From contig NZ_BSDC01000001.1 of assembly GCF_030268045.1 (NCBI RefSeq), positions 992,001-1,056,000 on the forward strand: 64,000 bases of DNA. The letters are read 5' to 3'. The DNA comes from Geothrix edaphica (GTDB taxonomy: Bacteria > Acidobacteriota > Holophagae > Holophagales > Holophagaceae). Below are positions 15,398-24,133 of the stretch, piece after piece. Position 1 is the first letter of the stretch; the number at the start of each line of letters is the position of its first letter. Under the pieces are notes generated by a model, which made no database searches, was not told the DNA's origin, and was given only the letters and a program-made list of their open reading frames with translations. A program made the position numbers and the translations under genes.

Positions 15398-16165
15398 TCA
15401 TGGAAGGACACTCCCGGCGAGGACCCCTCTCTTTTCCCCAACCAGCAGCTGATTCCCAATGGCCTGACCGGCCGATGCTGTTGCCGGAGGAAGCACAAAG
15501 TCGGCCTCCAGCAAGTCGGCCCGGACTGCGGAGAGGGGACGCCAGTGCACGTTCTCGGCCCTGTTCCAGCCGATCTTGACAGCGGCCTGTTCGCAGAGGC
15601 GCGTCAGGATCGCCACGCCGCCGGCGCGGCCGTCCATCACGCGAACCAGCAGCCGGCCACCTTCAGGCAGGTGGGAGGCGGCCCTGAACAGCAGCGCGCG
15701 TTGCTGGGCGGGTGGGAGGTAGTGGAGGACGTCCAGCAAGGTGATCACCGAACATTCGGGCCAGGGCTCCTTGAGCAGATCGCCGCACTCCACTTGGATG
15801 GCAGGGGTCGATTCGGCCAGCTGTCGGGCGAAGTGCGCTTTGGGTGCATCCCATTCAATGCCGTGGATGTCGTTCTCAAGGCCTCGCGCGGTCAGAAGCA
15901 GCCCAAGCAGGCCGACTCCACACCCGAGGTCCAGGACCTTCGCGCCTGGGGGGATCAACGGGAGAACAGCACGGTAGATGGGATCCAGCCGGATCTTGTA
16001 CTTCCCATAGCCAGCGAGCCAGTACGCACCCGGACCGGCTGCGGCCGTCAGCCTCGCGGACACCGCCGCGAAAGGGTTGCCGGCCCGATCGGAGGAGAGA
16101 TCGCTGAGGTCCGTGGATTCGATCGTGTTCACCGCGCTCCCCAACATGGACCAGCCCCGGGCCAT
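15398..16165 (-). CDS. Class I SAM-dependent methyltransferase
   Basis: A small-molecule-type methyltransferase of about 255 residues; the substrate is unknown. The SAM-binding motif I is VLDLGCGVGLLG, followed by the acidic end of strand 2 (HGIEWD), motif II-like CGDLL and the post-motif ITLLDVLHYL. It is the last gene of the leftward block that begins with the type III polyketide synthase. The open frame extends to 16258 but would overlap the cupin gene; the ATG at 16165 lies 19 bp after the cupin stop (another at 16147). Neither has a clear ribosome site. The context hints at tailoring of a polyketide or quinone, but this is inference. Confidence 0.75.
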   Translation of the reverse strand: MARGWSMLGSAVNTIESTDLSDLSSDRAGNPFAAVSARLTAAAGPGAYWLAGYGKYKIRLDPIYRAVLPLIPPGAKVLDLGCGVGLLGLLLTARGLENDIHGIEWDAPKAHFARQLAESTPAIQVECGDLLKEPWPECSVITLLDVLHYLPPAQQRALLFRAASHLPEGGRLLVRVMDGRAGGVAILTRLCEQAAVKIGWNRAENVHWRPLSAVRADLLEADFVLPPATASAGQAIGNQLLVGEKRGVLAGSVLP

Positions 16166-16184
16166 GGGGGGCTTGATGACCAGT

Positions 16185-16577
16185 CTATTCCGTCGTCTTG
16201 CCATCAAAGTGTTCGTTGTCTGCTTCGGCGTCACGGCGGGTCTGATGGACGACACCATCCCGATGATTCGGCGGGGCGTAGAGCGTATAGAGCTTCAGCG
16301 GAACACTGCCGGTATTGACGATGTTGTGCTTCGCCCCTGCGGGGACGATCACCGCGAAGCCGGCGTGGATCGCCGTCCGGACGCCATCGAGAACCGCTTC
16401 CCCGTCCCCCTCCTCCACGCGGAAGAACTGATCGAGCTGGTGGACCTCCGCCCCGATCTCCTCCTTGGGTTTCAGGGCCATGACGACAAGCTGGCAGTGC
16501 CTGGCGGTGTACAACACCCGCCGGAACGCGTCATTACTGATGGCGAGACTTTCGATGTCTTTCACAAAGCCCTTCAT
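16185..16577 (-). CDS. Cupin-domain protein
   Basis: A 130-residue single-domain cupin. The two cupin motifs are visible as GAEVHQLDQFFRVEEGDGEAVLDG and VPAGAKHNIVNTG; the His, Glu and last His are likely metal ligands, although the first motif has HQLDQ instead of the usual HxH. It could be an oxygenase, isomerase or sensor. The ATG at 16577 is selected by an excellent AAAGGAGG site; the frame extends to 16628 without support. It lies 16 bp after wrbA and upstream of the methyltransferase, so these genes probably form one transcript. Confidence 0.8.
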   Translation of the reverse strand: MKGFVKDIESLAISNDAFRRVLYTARHCQLVVMALKPKEEIGAEVHQLDQFFRVEEGDGEAVLDGVRTAIHAGFAVIVPAGAKHNIVNTGSVPLKLYTLYAPPNHRDGVVHQTRRDAEADNEHFDGKTTE

Positions 16578-16593
16578 CGCTGTTCCTCCTTTG

Positions 16594-17196
16594 TCAGGCA
16601 GATTGCTTCTTGGCGACTTGCGCCACATGGCTTCCCTGGAAACGGGCGACCTTCAATTCGTTTTCCGACGGTCGGCGGCTGCCATCGCCGCCGGCCAGCG
16701 TACTCGCACCGTACGGCGATCCGCCGGTGATCTCGCTCATGTTCATGATCTCCTGGCAGGAATAGGGCACCCCCACGAGGATCATGCCGTGGTGCAGCAG
16801 CGTGGTATGGAACGAGGTGATCGTGGTCTCCTGGCCGCCATGCTGCGTGGCCGTGGACGTGAACACGCTGCCCACCTTGCCGATCAGGGTGCCCTTGAGC
16901 CACAACCCGCCGGTCTGGTCCAGGAAGTTGCGCATTTGGGCGCACATGTTGCCGAACCGTGTCGGAGTGCCGAAGATGATGGCGTCGTAGCCCGGCAGCT
17001 CGTCCACGGTCGCGACGGGGGCCGCCTGATCGAGCTTGGCGCCCGCCTTCCGGGCCGCTTCTTCGGACATCAGCTCAGGCACGCGTTTGATGGTGACCTC
17101 GGTGCCTGCGACGCTGCGGGCGCCTTCGGCCACCGCGTTCGCCATGGTTTCGATGTGGCCGTACATGCTGTAGTAGAGAACCAGGACTTTTGCCAT
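16594..17196 (-). CDS. wrbA: NAD(P)H:quinone oxidoreductase, WrbA type
   Basis: FMN-dependent two-electron reductase of quinones. The 200-residue protein has the flavodoxin phosphate loop ([12 protein letters not shown]), the FMN-binding GTPTRFGNM, the WrbA-specific HGGQETT loop and a C-terminal SPYGAST with GG. The ATG at 17196 is preceded by AGGAG. It lies in the leftward block with the polyketide synthase, 86 bp after an alpha/beta hydrolase. If the polyketide product is oxidised to a quinone, this enzyme could keep it reduced; alternatively the gene is a general stress function. Confidence 0.93.
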
Positions 17197-17282: not shown

Positions 17283-18104
17283 TCAGGCCTGGAGGAAGGC
17301 GAGCAGATCGGCATTGACCTGGTCTTTATGGGTCGAACAGAGGCCGTGGGAGGCCCCGGGGTAGGTCTTCAGCGTGGAGCCCTCCACGAGCTTGGCCGCG
17401 AGCAGCGCTGTGGTGTCGATCGGCACGATCTGGTCGTCATCGCCGTGCATGATGAGCGTCGGAATATGGAAGGTCTTGAGATCCTCGGTGAAGTCCGTTT
17501 CCGAGAAGGCCTTGATGCAGTCGAGCACGCTCTTGAGACTGGCCTGCATGCCCTGGCGCCAGAACGAATCCCGGAGGCCTTGGGAGACCTTGGCATCGGG
17601 CCTGTTGGCGCCATAGAACGGCAGGGTGAGGTCCTTGAAGAATTGCGAGCGGTCGGCGAGCACGCCAGCGCGGATTTTGTCGAATGCATCGAGCGGCGCT
17701 CCCCCGGGGTTGGCGGCTGTCTTCAGCATCAAGGGCGTCACGGCGGCGATCAGCACGGCCTTGGCCACCCGCTTGGTGCCGTGGCGGCCGATGTACCGGG
17801 CGACTTCGCCGCCGCCCATGGAGTGCCCGACATGGATGGCATCCTTCAGGTCGAGCATCTCGACGAGTGCCGCGAGGTCATCCGCGAAGGTATCCATGTC
17901 GTTGCCATCCCAGGGCTGGCTGGAGCGCCCATGGCCACGGCGGTCGTGGGCGATGCATCGGTATCCGCGGGCACCCAGGAACACCATCTGGTCTTCCCAC
18001 GCATCGGCACTCAGCGGCCAGCCGTGGCTGAACACCACAGGCCTCCCGCTGCCCCAGTCCTTGTAGTAGATCTCCGTACCGTCCTTGGTGGTGATCGTGC
18101 TCAT
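17283..18104 (-). CDS. Alpha/beta hydrolase (non-haem chloroperoxidase/arylesterase family)
   Basis: A 273-residue serine hydrolase closely resembling bacterial cofactor-free haloperoxidases and arylesterases. The nucleophile elbow is GHSMGGGE with Ser95, the acid is an Asp of HGDDDQIVP (about 224) and the base His253 in ASHGL; oxyanion-hole HGWPLS is at 27-32. Haloperoxidase activity of this family is usually a side reaction of a perhydrolase or esterase. The ATG at 18104 has an AGGAG site. It sits 59 bp after the membrane-methyltransferase fusion gene on the same strand, so a role on the polyketide product is possible. Confidence 0.9.
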
Positions 18105-18163: not shown

Positions 18164-19396
18164 TCAGGCGGTCTTCAGGGCCCGGCCGCAGTACCCGACC
18201 CTCTGGGACTTGGTGAACTTGAACTGGAACTGGTCGCTCACCCGTCCCGTGAGCAGCAGCTTGAGGAAGGCCCAGGTGAAGATCCGGGGCTGCACGCCCC
18301 GCACCACCTCGACGGCGAGGTGGTGCCGGGCACACAGATCCTTGAGCTCCGCGGGCTTCAGGAACAGGTCGTAGACATGCATGTGCTTGGGGGTGTTCTT
18401 GACGAACCATTCGACGCCCTTGATGGCAATGAGCCAGCTGATGGGAGTCCGATTGAACGTATGGAAGAAGAAGAAGCCGCCGGGCCTGAGGACCCTGGAG
18501 GCTTCCCGCAGGACGGCATCCCGTTCGACCAGATGCTCGAGGAAGTCCATCATGCAGATCGCGTCGAAGCGTCCGGCGGGAAGGGACAGCACCCGCGCAT
18601 CCATCGAGCGGTAGATCACGGAACGAGTCGTGTCGTGTCGATGGGCCACCGCCAGGCTGTCCCGGGAGAGATCGATCCCGGTGACCGCATGGCCGGCCTC
18701 CGCCAGGGGATTGGCGAGGAACCCGGCCCCGCAGGCTACATCCAGGATGGTGAGGGGCGGCTCGCCAAAATGCGCCTGCAGTTCCGACAGCACCCAGGAG
18801 GTCCTGAGGCGGGACTCCGCCCTCAACAGGGCGACCGGATCATCGGTGGCTGTGTACCATCTTTCGCCCAGCTCATCGTAGAGGGTGTTGTTGATGCCGG
18901 GCCTCGTGCTCTCCCGTCGCTTGCGGGTCGACCAGTAGACGACCTGGAACACCAGGAATCCGGACACGGCGAGGCACTGGAACAGAAGCATCGCCCTTGC
19001 CGAGGCCAGAGCCGGTGTGGGAATTCCCTTCAAAGGTATGGCCCCCGTGCTGATCCAGAGCAGGGCCGTGGCGATCAGGACCAGGGGATGCAGGATGAAC
19101 AGGACGGCATGCACCCAATGCTCCCCCCCGGGGCATAGGCGCTGGTGGAGGAACTCATCCTTGGTGATCAGGAGGCAGGAGAGCACGGCCAGCACCCCGT
19201 AGAGGCCGAGGTTCGAGGCCACCGGGGGGAGTAGGAGCGGGCAGGCGAGGCAGGCCAGGAACACCGAAGTGTCCAGGGCGTGCCCCATCCACTCACCACG
19301 GGGCAGGGTCCTCCGGCGGTGGAACCAGAACTCGTCCACCCCCATGGCGAGCCCCTGGAGGCCGAAAGGCAGGGACCAGAGCAGCAATCCGTTCAC
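18164..19396 (-). CDS. Fusion of a His-rich membrane domain and a UbiG-like methyltransferase
   Basis: A 410-residue protein in two parts. Residues 1-155 form about four hydrophobic helices with repeated acidic/His clusters: DEFWFH (21-26), KDEFLH (79-84) and [13 protein letters not shown] (His93, His97, His103). Residues about 165-405 are a class I methyltransferase with motif [12 protein letters not shown] (217-227), GIDLS, and a C-terminal half like UbiG O-methyltransferases ([17 protein letters not shown], then [12 protein letters not shown]). The GTG start at 19396 overlaps the polyketide synthase stop as GTGA, so the two proteins are almost certainly made together. The likely substrate is a phenolic lipid from that synthase. 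The membrane domain is not one I can name. Confidence 0.82.
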
Positions 19397-20553
19397 GCGC
19401 TTTTCCGAAGAAGGGCGCCGGAGATGGTCAGCCCGGGCCCGAAGGCCAGGGAGACGATCAGGGTGCCGGGTTGGACAGCTCCATCCTCCAGGATGGCCTT
19501 CCACACATGGGGCAGCGTCGCGGAGGACATGTTTCCGAAATCGCCCAGGATGGCATTGCTGGCCTGGATCTGCTCCGGGCGCAGACCGAGGTGCTCCGCG
19601 ATTTCGTCGATGATCCGGGGACCGCCGGGATGGATGGCGAAGAGGGCTGCCTCGCACAGCTGGGCCGTGGTCAAGCCTGCGGTGGCGGCCAGGCGGTCCA
19701 GGAATGCTCCCAGGCCGGCGCGGATGTGGTCCGGGACCTTGCGGGAAAGGGTCATCAACATCCCGAAGTCGGAGACCATCCAGCTCATGGCGTCCTCCGT
19801 GTTCGGCACGATCTCCTCGCGGGTGGCGATCAGTTCCAGGCCGTTCGCGACCGGAGGCCCTTCCCCCATCCGCGAGGCGGAGTACCGGATCACGCCATCC
19901 GCGAACAGGGTCTGCACCACCAGCTGTTCGGGCAGATGCTGGGTCGGATCCATGTGCAGGGTGCACAGCTCGGTGTGGACGATATCCACCCGGGCCTTGC
20001 CCCTTTCCACAAATCCCGCGGCCATTCGGATGGCGGGCAGCGAGGCGTAGCAGCCCATGTGGTAGGCGTGGATCACCTCGGTGGACTGCCCCCAGTCGCG
20101 CTTGGCCACCAGCCGCTGGGCCCCGCTGGGTGAGACATATCCCGTGCAGGTGACATGGATGAGCACTGGCGGCGGGTCTGCCTCCTCGGCGTAGAACTGG
20201 TCGAAGGCGAGGCCGCTGACCTCCCGGAAGAAACGGCTCCGCTCGCCGCAGGGCTTGCCCGACGGATATTCCTTGAGCCGGAAGATCCGCATGCGATCCC
20301 AGTCGGTGTGGGTGAAGTCATCCAGGGCGGAGTTGCGGGAACGGATCCGATCCGTGCTGCAGCCGAAGCGCATGACCAGCTTCCGGTATTTCCGGGTGAT
20401 GGCCTCTCGCGCTTCGTCCGTGGTCGGTTTCTGAAGGGTGATTTCCGCCTGGGCGTGGGCCGCGGCGATCCATTCCAGGATCGCGCCCTGCCCCGAGTGG
20501 TGTTTGGGCGGCTGGCTCTGGAAACTGTGCAGGAGGACCGGAGAGTGAGTCAT
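19393..20553 (-). CDS. Type III polyketide synthase (chalcone/stilbene synthase family)
   Basis: Homodimeric ketosynthase that extends an acyl-CoA starter with malonyl-CoA and cyclises it, typically to alkylresorcinols or alkylpyrones in bacteria. The 386-residue protein has the Cys-His-Asn triad: Cys168 (HMGCYASLP), His308 (FAIHPGGP) and Asn341 (GNMSSAT). The C-terminal AFGPGLT loop is also characteristic. The ATG at 20553 has GGAAG 8 bp upstream; a TTG at 20565 is an alternative. It is the first gene of the leftward block and is coupled by a 4-bp overlap to a UbiG-like methyltransferase fusion. The A+T-rich region upstream is unlike the rest of the window. Confidence 0.93.
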   Translation of the reverse strand: MTHSPVLLHSFQSQPPKHHSGQGAILEWIAAAHAQAEITLQKPTTDEAREAITRKYRKLVMRFGCSTDRIRSRNSALDDFTHTDWDRMRIFRLKEYPSGKPCGERSRFFREVSGLAFDQFYAEEADPPPVLIHVTCTGYVSPSGAQRLVAKRDWGQSTEVIHAYHMGCYASLPAIRMAAGFVERGKARVDIVHTELCTLHMDPTQHLPEQLVVQTLFADGVIRYSASRMGEGPPVANGLELIATREEIVPNTEDAMSWMVSDFGMLMTLSRKVPDHIRAGLGAFLDRLAATAGLTTAQLCEAALFAIHPGGPRIIDEIAEHLGLRPEQIQASNAILGDFGNMSSATLPHVWKAILEDGAVQPGTLIVSLAFGPGLTISGALLRKSA

Positions 20554-20570
20554 CTGCACTTCCAAGCATT

Positions 20571-20599
20571 TTGTGAACCAAACTATAACCTATTATATT
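20571..20599 (+). promoter_or_regulatory. Predicted promoter in A+T-rich divergent region
   Basis: TTGTGA, a 17-bp spacer and TATATT match the sigma70 consensus on the plus strand, pointing at the 58-codon gene at 20796. A perfect TATAAT lies on the opposite strand at 20592-20597, properly placed to serve the polyketide synthase operon, but without a good -35. The surrounding 40 bp are nearly all A and T, in a chromosome otherwise about two thirds G+C. Confidence 0.5.
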
Positions 20600-20795
20600 G
20601 TAATAATTAAATAATACAAACCAACGGCTGCCCAAGGGCATTGAATCAACATGAAACACCGACGCCTTCAATTTGAAGGCCGATCCCAGCTCCAGGCGGC
20701 AACCTGGCCGGCCGGGTGGTTGAGGTCTCCTCCTCACAACTTGACGGCGCAACCCGCTTTTATGCCCTATATTCCTCAAGGGAGGGGAACGGAAG
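20600..20795 (+). other. Leader region with short palindrome upstream of the 58-codon gene
   Basis: About 200 bp lie between the predicted promoter and the small gene. A perfect palindrome GCCTTCAA-T-TTGAAGGC occupies 20664-20680. An in-frame ATG at 20651 opens a 96-codon frame, but it lacks a ribosome site and has a shadow-like composition. The segment could be an untranslated leader or carry an operator. Confidence 0.35.
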
Positions 20796-21403: not shown

Positions 21404-24133
21404 TCAGCGGGTTTCGATGCCGGGGGCGATGGTGACCTGGACCTTCTGCTGCACCTTGGCGGCGCCCAGAGTCAGGGTGGCAGTGTAGGTGCCGGGGCGC
21501 ACGAACTTGTCGGGGCCCAGGCCGCCGTACTCGGTGAGCAGGGTCTTGGTCGGGCGCAGGTTCCAGGCCACCCGTCCCAGGCCCGGCGTACGGGGCAGGG
21601 GGAAGGTGGCCACGGGCTGGCCTTCGGCATTGGTGATCGAAAGGCTGGGAGCCTCGTCGCCCAGGTCGCGGATCCAGTAGGTGAGCACCGCGCCCTCGGG
21701 CGGGTTCTCCCCGCGATAGATGCCCCTGCCGGCTGAGTCCTCCCAGCCGGGCAGCAGATAGGCGCCTTCCGCGGGACGCACGGGGAAGAGCTCCAGCGGC
21801 TTGGCGGCGACCTCGGCGGTGAGGGCCTCCAGGGGCGAGATGTCGTCCAGTACATAGAGGCTGCGGCCGTGGGTGGCGATGACGAGATCACGCTCCCGGG
21901 GCTGGATCTGAAGGTCGTCCACAGCCACGGCGGGCAGGCCGCCGAGCTTCACCCAGTTCGCACCCCGGTCCAGGCTCGCGTACAGGCCGGCCTCGGTGCC
22001 TGCATAGAGCAGGTCCGGGTTCACCGGATCTTCCCGGACCACCTTCACGGGCACGTCCGGAGGCAGGTTGGCGGCGAGGCTCTGCCAGGTGCGTCCGCTG
22101 TCGGCCGTGCGGTAGACCAGGGGGGCGTAGAGGCCGGCCCGGTGGGCGTCCACGGCCAGGTAGGCCACCTTGGCGTCGCGCCTTCCGGGCTCGATGCGGC
22201 TCATCCACTGGCCGCGGGCCGGCGTGGGCACGAAGGCGCTGAGGTCCGTCCAGTGGCCGCCGTCGTCCTCGGTGAGCCAGAGCTTACCGTCGTCCGTGCC
22301 GGCCCAGAGCAGTCCGGCCTTCACGGGCGACTCCGCCAGGGTGTACACCACGCCGTAGGTCTCGGCGCCGCTGCCCGTGGCCGTGGTCTTCTGGGGGTCC
22401 CGAGTCGAGAGGTCGGGGCTGATGACCTTCCAGTTCTCCCCGCGGTCCGTCAGGCGGAAGATCCGGTTGCCGCCCAGGTACAGGGCGCCCTTGTCGTGGC
22501 TGCTGCCGAAGAGTGGCGCGTTCCAGTTGAAGCGGAAGGCGGGCTGGCCCTCGGCCGGGTTGGGGCGCAGCGTCTTCAGCTCGCCGGTGCGGAGGTTGAA
22601 GCGGTGCAGCATGCCCTCCTGGCTCTCGGCGTAGATCAGATCGGGGTCCTGGGAATCGAAGGCGCAGGAGAAGCCGTCGCCCCCGCCGATATTGGTCCAG
22701 TCGGAGTTGAGGATCCCGTCCTTGGAGCGGGTGCGGCTGGGGCCCACCCAGTTGAGGTTGTCCTGGAGGCCACCGGCGATGCGGTAGGGCGTGCTGTCAT
22801 CAAGGGTGATGCGGTAGAACTGGCCCGCAGGGATGCTGTTCAGGTGGAGCCAGGCCTGGCCGGCCTCGTAGCTCTGGTACACGCCGCCATCCGTGCCCAG
22901 CAGCAGCCGAGGTGAGACGGGTGGCAGCGCCGGCTCGCCGGGCGCGGGGGGTTCCACCTTCGGGGGATCGGCCTTGGGGAAGGCCAGGGCATGGCAGTCT
23001 GCATGGACCTTGCCGAAGAGGTCCTCCCGGAAGCTGCGGCCCCCGTTGTCCGAGACGTGCAGCATGTAGCCCGCCACGTAGACCCGCTGGGGATTCACCG
23101 GGTCGATGCGGAGCTGGCTGAAGTAGAAGGGGCGGGGGTTCAGCGCGTTCATGCGGATCCAGCTCTCCCCGCCGTCTTCGGAGCGGAACACGCCGCCGGC
23201 GCGGCTCAGGAGGTCGTCGATGCCCACGGTGCCGCCCTGGTCGCTCTGGACCACCGCCATCACGACGTTCGGGTTGCTGCGGGAGACATCCAGGCCGATG
23301 CGACCGGTGAGTGTGGGCAGGCCCTTCCCGAGCTTGCGCCAAGTGGCTCCGCCGTCGGTGCTTCGGTAGATGCCGCCGACATCCTGCCCCTCCGAGGCGG
23401 CGATGCCACAGCTGAAGGACCAGGGGGTGCGCTGCCGCGCGTAGAGGGTGGCGTAGAGGGTATCCGGGGTCGAGGGATCCAGGACCACATCGCCGCAGCC
23501 CACGCGGATGTCCAGGCCGCCGGGAGCCTTGAGGACGGCCTTCCAGGTCTTCCCGGCGTCGGTGGTCTTGAAGAGCCCCCGCTCGCCGCCGGGGTTCCAC
23601 AGATCGCCCATCACCGCCACCCAGGCGATGGCGGGGTCCTTGGGATGGACCACGACCCGCGGGATGGCCCTGCTGCCCTCCAGGCCCGCCCGGGCCCAGG
23701 TGGCGCCGCCGTCTGTGGAGCGGTAGACGCCGTTGCCCCAGCCGGAGCTGTTGCGGTCGTTGGCCTCTCCCGTTCCGACCCAAAGCACCTTCGGATCTGA
23801 AGGGGCCACAGCCACGGCACCGATGGACTGAACGGGCTGCTTGTCGAAGAGGGGGGAGAAGGTGGCGCCCGCATTGGCGGTCTTCCAGACGCCTCCCGTG
23901 GCCAGGCCCACGTAGAACGTGTCGGGGCTTGCCGGATCCACGGCGATGTCGGAAACCCGGCCGCCCATGATGGCGGGCCCGAGGCTGCGGGCCTTCAGGG
24001 CCGCGAGACGGGCCGCATCCACGACCGGCCCCTGCGCTTTCGGGGCGGGCGCGGGTACCTTGCCCTTCGGGCCAGCCGTCAGCGAGGCGCAGAGCAGAAG
24101 GGCGGACAGCAGGCGCGGAAGGCTGGCGGGCAT
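21404..24133 (-). CDS. Secreted BNR/sortilin-type beta-propeller protein
   Basis: A 909-residue exported protein with an N-terminal signal peptide (LPRLLSALLLCASLTA). At least nine Asp-box repeats of the S-x-D-G-G-x-T-W type are visible (STDGGATW twice, TTDAGKTW, SEDGGESW, TADSGRTW and others), as in VPS10/sortilin-like and xyloglucanase-like propellers. The last 150 residues form a different, probably Ig-like, domain. Such proteins are common in Acidobacteriota and are often labelled glycosyl hydrolases without activity data; no catalytic residues can be named. A GAGG precedes the ATG. Upstream is hutU, downstream the YchJ-like gene. Confidence 0.88.
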   Translation of the reverse strand: MPASLPRLLSALLLCASLTAGPKGKVPAPAPKAQGPVVDAARLAALKARSLGPAIMGGRVSDIAVDPASPDTFYVGLATGGVWKTANAGATFSPLFDKQPVQSIGAVAVAPSDPKVLWVGTGEANDRNSSGWGNGVYRSTDGGATWARAGLEGSRAIPRVVVHPKDPAIAWVAVMGDLWNPGGERGLFKTTDAGKTWKAVLKAPGGLDIRVGCGDVVLDPSTPDTLYATLYARQRTPWSFSCGIAASEGQDVGGIYRSTDGGATWRKLGKGLPTLTGRIGLDVSRSNPNVVMAVVQSDQGGTVGIDDLLSRAGGVFRSEDGGESWIRMNALNPRPFYFSQLRIDPVNPQRVYVAGYMLHVSDNGGRSFREDLFGKVHADCHALAFPKADPPKVEPPAPGEPALPPVSPRLLLGTDGGVYQSYEAGQAWLHLNSIPAGQFYRITLDDSTPYRIAGGLQDNLNWVGPSRTRSKDGILNSDWTNIGGGDGFSCAFDSQDPDLIYAESQEGMLHRFNLRTGELKTLRPNPAEGQPAFRFNWNAPLFGSSHDKGALYLGGNRIFRLTDRGENWKVISPDLSTRDPQKTTATGSGAETYGVVYTLAESPVKAGLLWAGTDDGKLWLTEDDGGHWTDLSAFVPTPARGQWMSRIEPGRRDAKVAYLAVDAHRAGLYAPLVYRTADSGRTWQSLAANLPPDVPVKVVREDPVNPDLLYAGTEAGLYASLDRGANWVKLGGLPAVAVDDLQIQPRERDLVIATHGRSLYVLDDISPLEALTAEVAAKPLELFPVRPAEGAYLLPGWEDSAGRGIYRGENPPEGAVLTYWIRDLGDEAPSLSITNAEGQPVATFPLPRTPGLGRVAWNLRPTKTLLTEYGGLGPDKFVRPGTYTATLTLGAAKVQQKVQVTIAPGIETR

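Follow-up and report, generated by a model that had tools for sequence, protein, structure and literature searches.

A conserved cassette of type III polyketide synthase, five-helix membrane protein and UbiG-like methyltransferase, found in partly fused form in Geothrix edaphica

In Geothrix edaphica, a gene for a type III polyketide synthase (PKS) overlaps a gene whose product joins a membrane domain to a UbiG-like O-methyltransferase (MT). This arrangement raises the question of what the two genes make together, and of what the membrane domain contributes. We analyzed a 64,000-nucleotide stretch of contig NZ_BSDC01000001.1 (hereafter, the window) together with homologous loci from other genomes. 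The answer that we favor, and to which we give about an even chance, is that the two genes represent the fused form of a cassette composed of a PKS, a five-helix membrane protein and a UbiG-like MT, which produces a modified membrane phenolic lipid, with the membrane domain carrying out a hydroxylation.

Two overlapping genes and the domains of their products

The locus comprises the following features:
19393..20553, minus strand: type III PKS, 386 aa, ATG start (recognized from Pfam, PDB relatives and the catalytic triad)
18164..19396, minus strand: fusion of a membrane domain with a UbiG-like MT, 410 aa, GTG start (fused orthologues in L032-L035, L002 and L061-L067)
18911..19396, minus strand: N-terminal five-helix membrane domain, residues 1-162 (77-sequence alignment and AlphaFold2)
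18164..18880, minus strand: C-terminal UbiG-like O-methyltransferase domain, from about residue 173 (TIGR01983 and alignment with 4kdc)
20554..20650, minus strand: AT-rich stretch upstream of the PKS, 35% GC in a window of 69% GC

The preliminary description of the gene pair was accurate, and we add that the pair is encoded on the minus strand. The PKS stop codon and the start of the fusion gene indeed share the 4 nucleotides GTGA, and the same overlap and start recur in the relatives of the window at L032-L035. In the mechanical list of open reading frames, the fusion frame opens far upstream of the GTG at 19396; we consider this GTG to be the start because it coincides with the start in the fused relatives and in the separate genes for the membrane protein. 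The closest relatives of both genes belong, by name, to Geothrix fuzhouensis and other Holophagaceae (Acidobacteriota). Geothrix fuzhouensis SG12 and G. limicola Red804 carry the cassette, and there are also Geothrix without it. The AT-rich stretch is the probable promoter region of the PKS-fusion operon; a promoter search of its minus strand returned no confident match.

The proposed division of the 410 residues was borne out: a membrane domain (approximately residues 1-160) is followed by an MT of the UbiG type, with residues 173-369 matching TIGR01983 at 127.4 bits (cut-off 102.95). This is the single UbiG above the cut-off in the whole genome (3.16 Mb). The domain resembles UbiG/Coq3 in passing this curated cut-off and in keeping the region that aligns with the UbiG membrane-binding insertion (NRxxxSWLxAIxGxE), but differs in being fused to, or encoded beside, a membrane protein and a PKS. 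A further difference lies in its DxxEH motif, where an Asp that is invariant among the aligned homologues replaces the first Glu of the E. coli UbiG ExxEH (4kdc alignment). The AlphaFold2 model of the full fusion (11 sequences) has a pTM of 0.62, and the relative placement of the domains was not drawn from it.

A three-part cassette in seven phyla

The preliminary description had called for homologues of the fusion to be sought across genomes and their PKS neighbors to be counted. The profile used in our scan of contigs covered no more than the membrane domain and thus does not favor loci with a PKS nearby. It retrieved 80 loci from seven phyla (Acidobacteriota, Chlamydiota, Verrucomicrobiota, Bdellovibrionota, Myxococcota, Fibrobacterota and Pseudomonadota). 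Of these, 73 include a PKS, and in 70 the PKS, the membrane protein and the UbiG-like MT are encoded side by side on one strand. Several of the incomplete loci are situated at the end of a contig, and a few loci (L083, L130, L140) have a gene or a gap between the parts of the cassette. Homologues of the membrane part are thus mostly found beside a PKS, and linkage across all seven phyla supports the suggestion that the fusion and the type III PKS work together.

The linkage is also evident within individual phyla. Of 297 Acidobacteriota genomes, 13 encode the membrane domain, and every one of the 12 with a close PKS belongs to these 13 (Fisher p ~2e-20, counting genomes that are not independent of each other). 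The first six Acidobacteriota loci examined outside the genus all carry the PKS, the membrane protein and the UbiG-like MT in this order as separate genes, most of which overlap or abut. In Chlamydiota, the membrane protein was detected in 45 of 151 sampled genomes, and 29 of the 30 loci fetched contain all three parts, the remaining one being located at a contig end. Two of the loci (L077 and L079) come from metagenome-assembled genomes titled Chlamydia trachomatis (isolates MsH-30jul19-69 and ZH-03apr19-43); these titles are apparently misassignments of environmental Chlamydiota.

A search for a conserved fourth gene beside the 80 loci revealed none that is general, the commonest further neighbors being a TauE/SafE-like permease (16 loci) and a thiol peroxidase-like protein (14 loci), both named by eye.

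Several loci depart from the pattern and speak against a cassette tied to the PKS. A membrane protein and an MT without an adjacent PKS were found in L090/L148, L111, L115, L124 and L135; the genomes carrying L111 and L115, as well as genome G100, contain no close PKS, and in G282 the PKS and the membrane-MT pair occupy separate sites. Conversely, the betaproteobacterial locus L105 encodes a PKS and a membrane protein but no UbiG-like MT within its 16 kb, and thereby offers a natural setting for studying the reaction of the membrane protein by itself. L154 (G314) holds a second, divergent copy of the membrane domain, with the motif LKDDEVH, and neither a PKS nor an MT within its 3.5 kb. Nevertheless, the idea that the PKS and the fusion are neighbors by chance and belong to unrelated pathways is practically untenable: it draws on the few loci without a PKS and on nothing beyond them, and is refuted by adjacency conserved in seven phyla.

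In L041, the G282 locus in which the PKS lies apart from the membrane-MT pair, a FabF-like ketosynthase (named by eye) is encoded directly upstream of the PKS.

Repeated fusion of the membrane protein and the methyltransferase

The preliminary description presented the membrane-MT fusion as a novel feature, a view that we rejected, since in most loci and lineages the two proteins are encoded by separate genes. The fused form is present in 11 loci. In a tree of 83 MT sequences, the fused state requires three changes, which are forced by well-supported branches and fall in Holophagaceae, in one group of Myxococcota and in one sequence from Oligoflexia. Within Holophagaceae, the locus L068, which encodes the two proteins separately, branches as sister to the fused loci. 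On the simplest reading of this tree, the same two partners were fused independently, with at least three changes, which would support their consecutive or joint action.

The membrane domain is probably catalytic

Residues 1-160 of the window protein have no match in Pfam (to E<=1) or NCBIfam, and a PDB sequence search with the membrane domain found no relative. The AlphaFold2 model of the domain (pLDDT 94.6) contains five long helices and a short one at residues 80-86. Its most conserved part is the following:
19088..19336, minus strand: invariant cluster D21, H26, R29, E35, H39, D42, K79, D80, E81, H84, E92, H96 and H103, numbered as in the fusion protein (87- and 77-sequence alignments)

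All residues of the cluster are invariant across 87 sequences, and E22 is kept in 86 of them. To put this conservation into context, we compared the three cassette proteins from the same 70 loci. An Asp, Glu or His conserved at 97% or above occupies 12 of 157 columns in the membrane protein, 9 of 375 in the PKS and 9 of 241 in the MT (7.6, 2.4 and 3.7 near-invariant D/E/H per 100 columns, respectively); pairwise identities average 0.47, 0.45 and 0.52 in the three proteins. In the model, the invariant residues lie where helix 1 ends, where helix 2 begins, where helix 3 ends and in the short helix behind it, and where helix 4 begins; near each of these four places there is an ExxH or ExxxH spacing (E22-H26, E35-H39, E81-H84 and E92-H96). 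In its general character, this pattern recalls the ligand sets found in di-metal oxidases of the membrane or helical-bundle type. Lys and Arg are concentrated in the cluster-bearing loops (means of 3.1 and 1.9, versus 0.3 and 0.6 in the opposite loops), and this charge distribution places the cluster and the C-terminal MT on the predicted cytoplasmic side. Judging from the helix positions and this topology, the cluster is a candidate for an active site that binds metal at the cytoplasmic ends of the helices, and the conservation pattern suggests that the membrane part is probably a catalytic, putatively metal-binding protein.

The preliminary description had assigned the membrane part a humbler role, namely bringing the MT to its substrate at the membrane. 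As a mere anchor, or a scaffold presenting the lipid substrate, it would account for the five predicted helices and for the repeated fusion to the MT. However, in most loci the membrane protein is a separate gene, UbiG enzymes already possess a membrane-binding insertion of their own (PMC4796655), and the 12 near-invariant D/E/H positions, a conservation of the catalytic type, would be superfluous for anchoring. We therefore do not retain the anchoring role, which appears very unlikely.

Comparison of folds yielded no assignment for the family. A Foldseek search with the model gave best E values of 1.8 in the PDB and 1.3 in BFVD. FA_hydroxylase and FA_desaturase are absent among the 25 listed of the 28 Pfam families matched by the 77 members, and weak Pfam or NCBIfam matches of single members (EccD, PgaD, PGPGW and others) were set aside as scattered. 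Bestrophins head the VIA-align rows (Z ~10) but were not counted as kin, because models built of helices often score this high even when nothing matches them clearly. The PLSDB plasmids that we searched contain no relative of the domain. The family can be recognized by the signature DEFxFH...GHPLD...TKDExxH...ExWLH, a ready marker for further members.

The PKS is best read as an alkylresorcinol synthase

Both Pfam models of the family exceed their cut-offs in the PKS (Chal_sti_synt_C, 80.8 bits; Chal_sti_synt_N, 28.1 bits). The intact triad claimed earlier, Cys168-His308-Asn341, can be read directly from the translation, and all three residues are invariant among 46 aligned PKS homologues. The best PDB relatives are 3vs8 and 3vs9 (E ~1e-64 to 1e-66), that is, Azotobacter ArsC as wild type and G284W variant. 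ArsB and ArsC of Azotobacter vinelandii are thus the closest solved structures and represent a family using long-chain alkyl starters.

ArsB, with Trp281, makes alkylresorcinols and ArsC, with Gly284, alkylpyrones, and the G284W exchange in ArsC yields more alkylresorcinol and less alkylpyrone; Trp at this site promotes aldol ring closure at the expense of lactonization (PMC6274091). Trp258 of the window PKS aligns with ArsC position 284, which is the position of ArsB Trp281, and a Trp occupies it in 46 of 46 homologues. Because of this Trp, the best reading of the sequence is an alkylresorcinol synthase of the ArsB type, in support of the resorcinol-type product that had been suggested.

The alternative that the PKS releases an alkylpyrone, whose hydroxyl the MT then methylates, appears quite unlikely, even though the solved relative closest in sequence is ArsC, an alkylpyrone synthase (PMC6274091): the position that discriminates between ArsB and ArsC holds an invariant Trp in the 46 homologues. 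The MT family points in the same direction. Ubiquinone precursors are phenolic; they are also the substrates of UbiG (PMC4796655, for the enzyme), which argues against a pyrone.

Comparison with known operons and a proposed pathway

Known operons for alkylresorcinols and polyketide quinones combine a PKS and a methyltransferase with an oxidoreductase or hydroxylase (PMC9927152, PMC10896814). Less similar type III PKSs of Acidobacteriota adjoin FAD_binding_3 proteins and, in some cases, methyltransferases as well. In contrast, no FAD-dependent oxidoreductase is among the conserved neighbor families of the 80 loci, and the Geothrix genome contains no full-length FAD_binding_3 protein, only fragments of 28-36 residues. 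Given that known operons contain an oxidoreductase, while the cassette lacks a conserved one nearby and this genome lacks a full-length FAD_binding_3 protein, the membrane protein would, most simply, take the oxidative slot.

The closest parallel is provided by srsABC and pkqABC of Streptomyces and Mycobacterium smegmatis, which likewise are three-component units of PKS, methyltransferase and oxidizing enzyme, with a Trp at the ArsB 281 position and an expected resorcinol core (PMC9927152). The window cassette differs in having a five-helix membrane protein instead of the flavoprotein oxidoreductase, a UbiG-type MT, and, in some loci, a fusion of the two. The hierridin operon hidABC of cyanobacteria and Planctomycetota is also a three-gene unit, producing O-methylated alkylresorcinols (PMC10896814, PMC8086630), but its order is mostly methyltransferase-oxidoreductase-PKS, whereas the order here is PKS-membrane protein-UbiG, with no FAD-dependent oxidoreductase. 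Finally, the ars operon encodes its own fatty acid synthase, which hands over the starter, and the available part of the source describes no membrane protein or UbiG partner of the window kind (PMC6274091).

We propose that the PKS would extend a long-chain acyl starter with malonyl-CoA and, by aldol closure, release a 5-alkylresorcinol, as suggested by homology and Trp258. The membrane domain, replacing the flavoprotein oxidoreductase of the srs, pkq and hid operons, would then oxidize the ring, most likely by hydroxylation, through its cytoplasmic Asp/Glu/His cluster. The UbiG-like domain, located on the same side of the membrane, would O-methylate the product, as expected from its family. 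The pathway would end with a methoxylated alkylresorcinol, alkylhydroquinone or alkylbenzoquinone; the methylated alkylresorcinol or alkylquinone of the preliminary description thus stays a prediction.

The second step is the least secure. No relative in fold or sequence connects the membrane family to any hydroxylase. Geothrix is an anaerobic genus, which sits uneasily with an oxygen-dependent step; genes for heme-copper and bd oxidases were found in the genome, so that use of oxygen is possible. The membrane protein could instead be a cassette enzyme other than a hydroxylase, such as a metal-dependent hydrolase, a decarboxylase, a cyclase or a quinol-oxidizing protein, acting on the polyketide lipid before or after its methylation. 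The same conservation and linkage data and the missing fold match would suit such an enzyme, as would the fact that several cassette hosts are anaerobic or intracellular; however, the known operons need an oxidoreductase, and none is otherwise found beside the cassette. On balance, we consider a non-hydroxylase less likely, albeit the chief contender. Returning to hydroxylation, its strongest form, namely that the membrane protein founds a new class of small membrane metalloenzymes that hydroxylate alkylresorcinols on the way to a methoxylated polyketide quinone, is a tentative proposal with somewhat less than an even chance. The hosts of such a class, stated with the same reserve, would be environmental Chlamydiota, Bdellovibrionota, Verrucomicrobiota, Myxococcota, Fibrobacterota and Acidobacteriota.

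Relation to previous work

Type III PKS tailoring operons for phenolic lipids are already known. In the open-access literature, we found no description of the composition of the present cassette, of the membrane family or of its wide spread, and no report of a methoxylated polyketide quinone in those host phyla. Open-access work on Chlamydiae and Bdellovibrio mentions type III PKS clusters and does not describe the membrane protein or the UbiG partner. There is a real chance that the membrane family is a new enzyme class. If our reading holds, a small family of enzymes that lacks a Pfam model acts in a phenolic-lipid or quinone pathway in at least seven phyla, with a testable reaction and a candidate non-flavin route to alkylquinones. 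It would also bear on Chlamydiota, which live as intracellular symbionts and whose type III PKS clusters are mentioned, but not explained, in the open-access literature that we found.

Genes flanking the cassette

The cassette is surrounded by the following genes:
16594-17196 and 17283-18104, minus strand: alpha/beta-hydrolase (haloperoxidase-like) and WrbA-like protein (NAD(P)H:quinone oxidoreductase), both named by eye, directly downstream of the cassette
15398-16583, minus strand: cupin-like gene and a second, unrelated class I methyltransferase, further downstream
21404-24133, minus strand: large BNR/sortilin-like repeat protein, upstream of the cassette

The WrbA neighbor is a weak hint of a quinone product. 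A WrbA gene likewise comes after the cassette in L061, L062 and L066, and WrbA of the window type occurs in only 6 of 41 sampled genomes of the genus, the window included. Elsewhere, a cupin is located near the cassette in L062 only. A gene similar to that for the BNR/sortilin-like protein precedes the membrane-MT pair in L111, possibly by coincidence.
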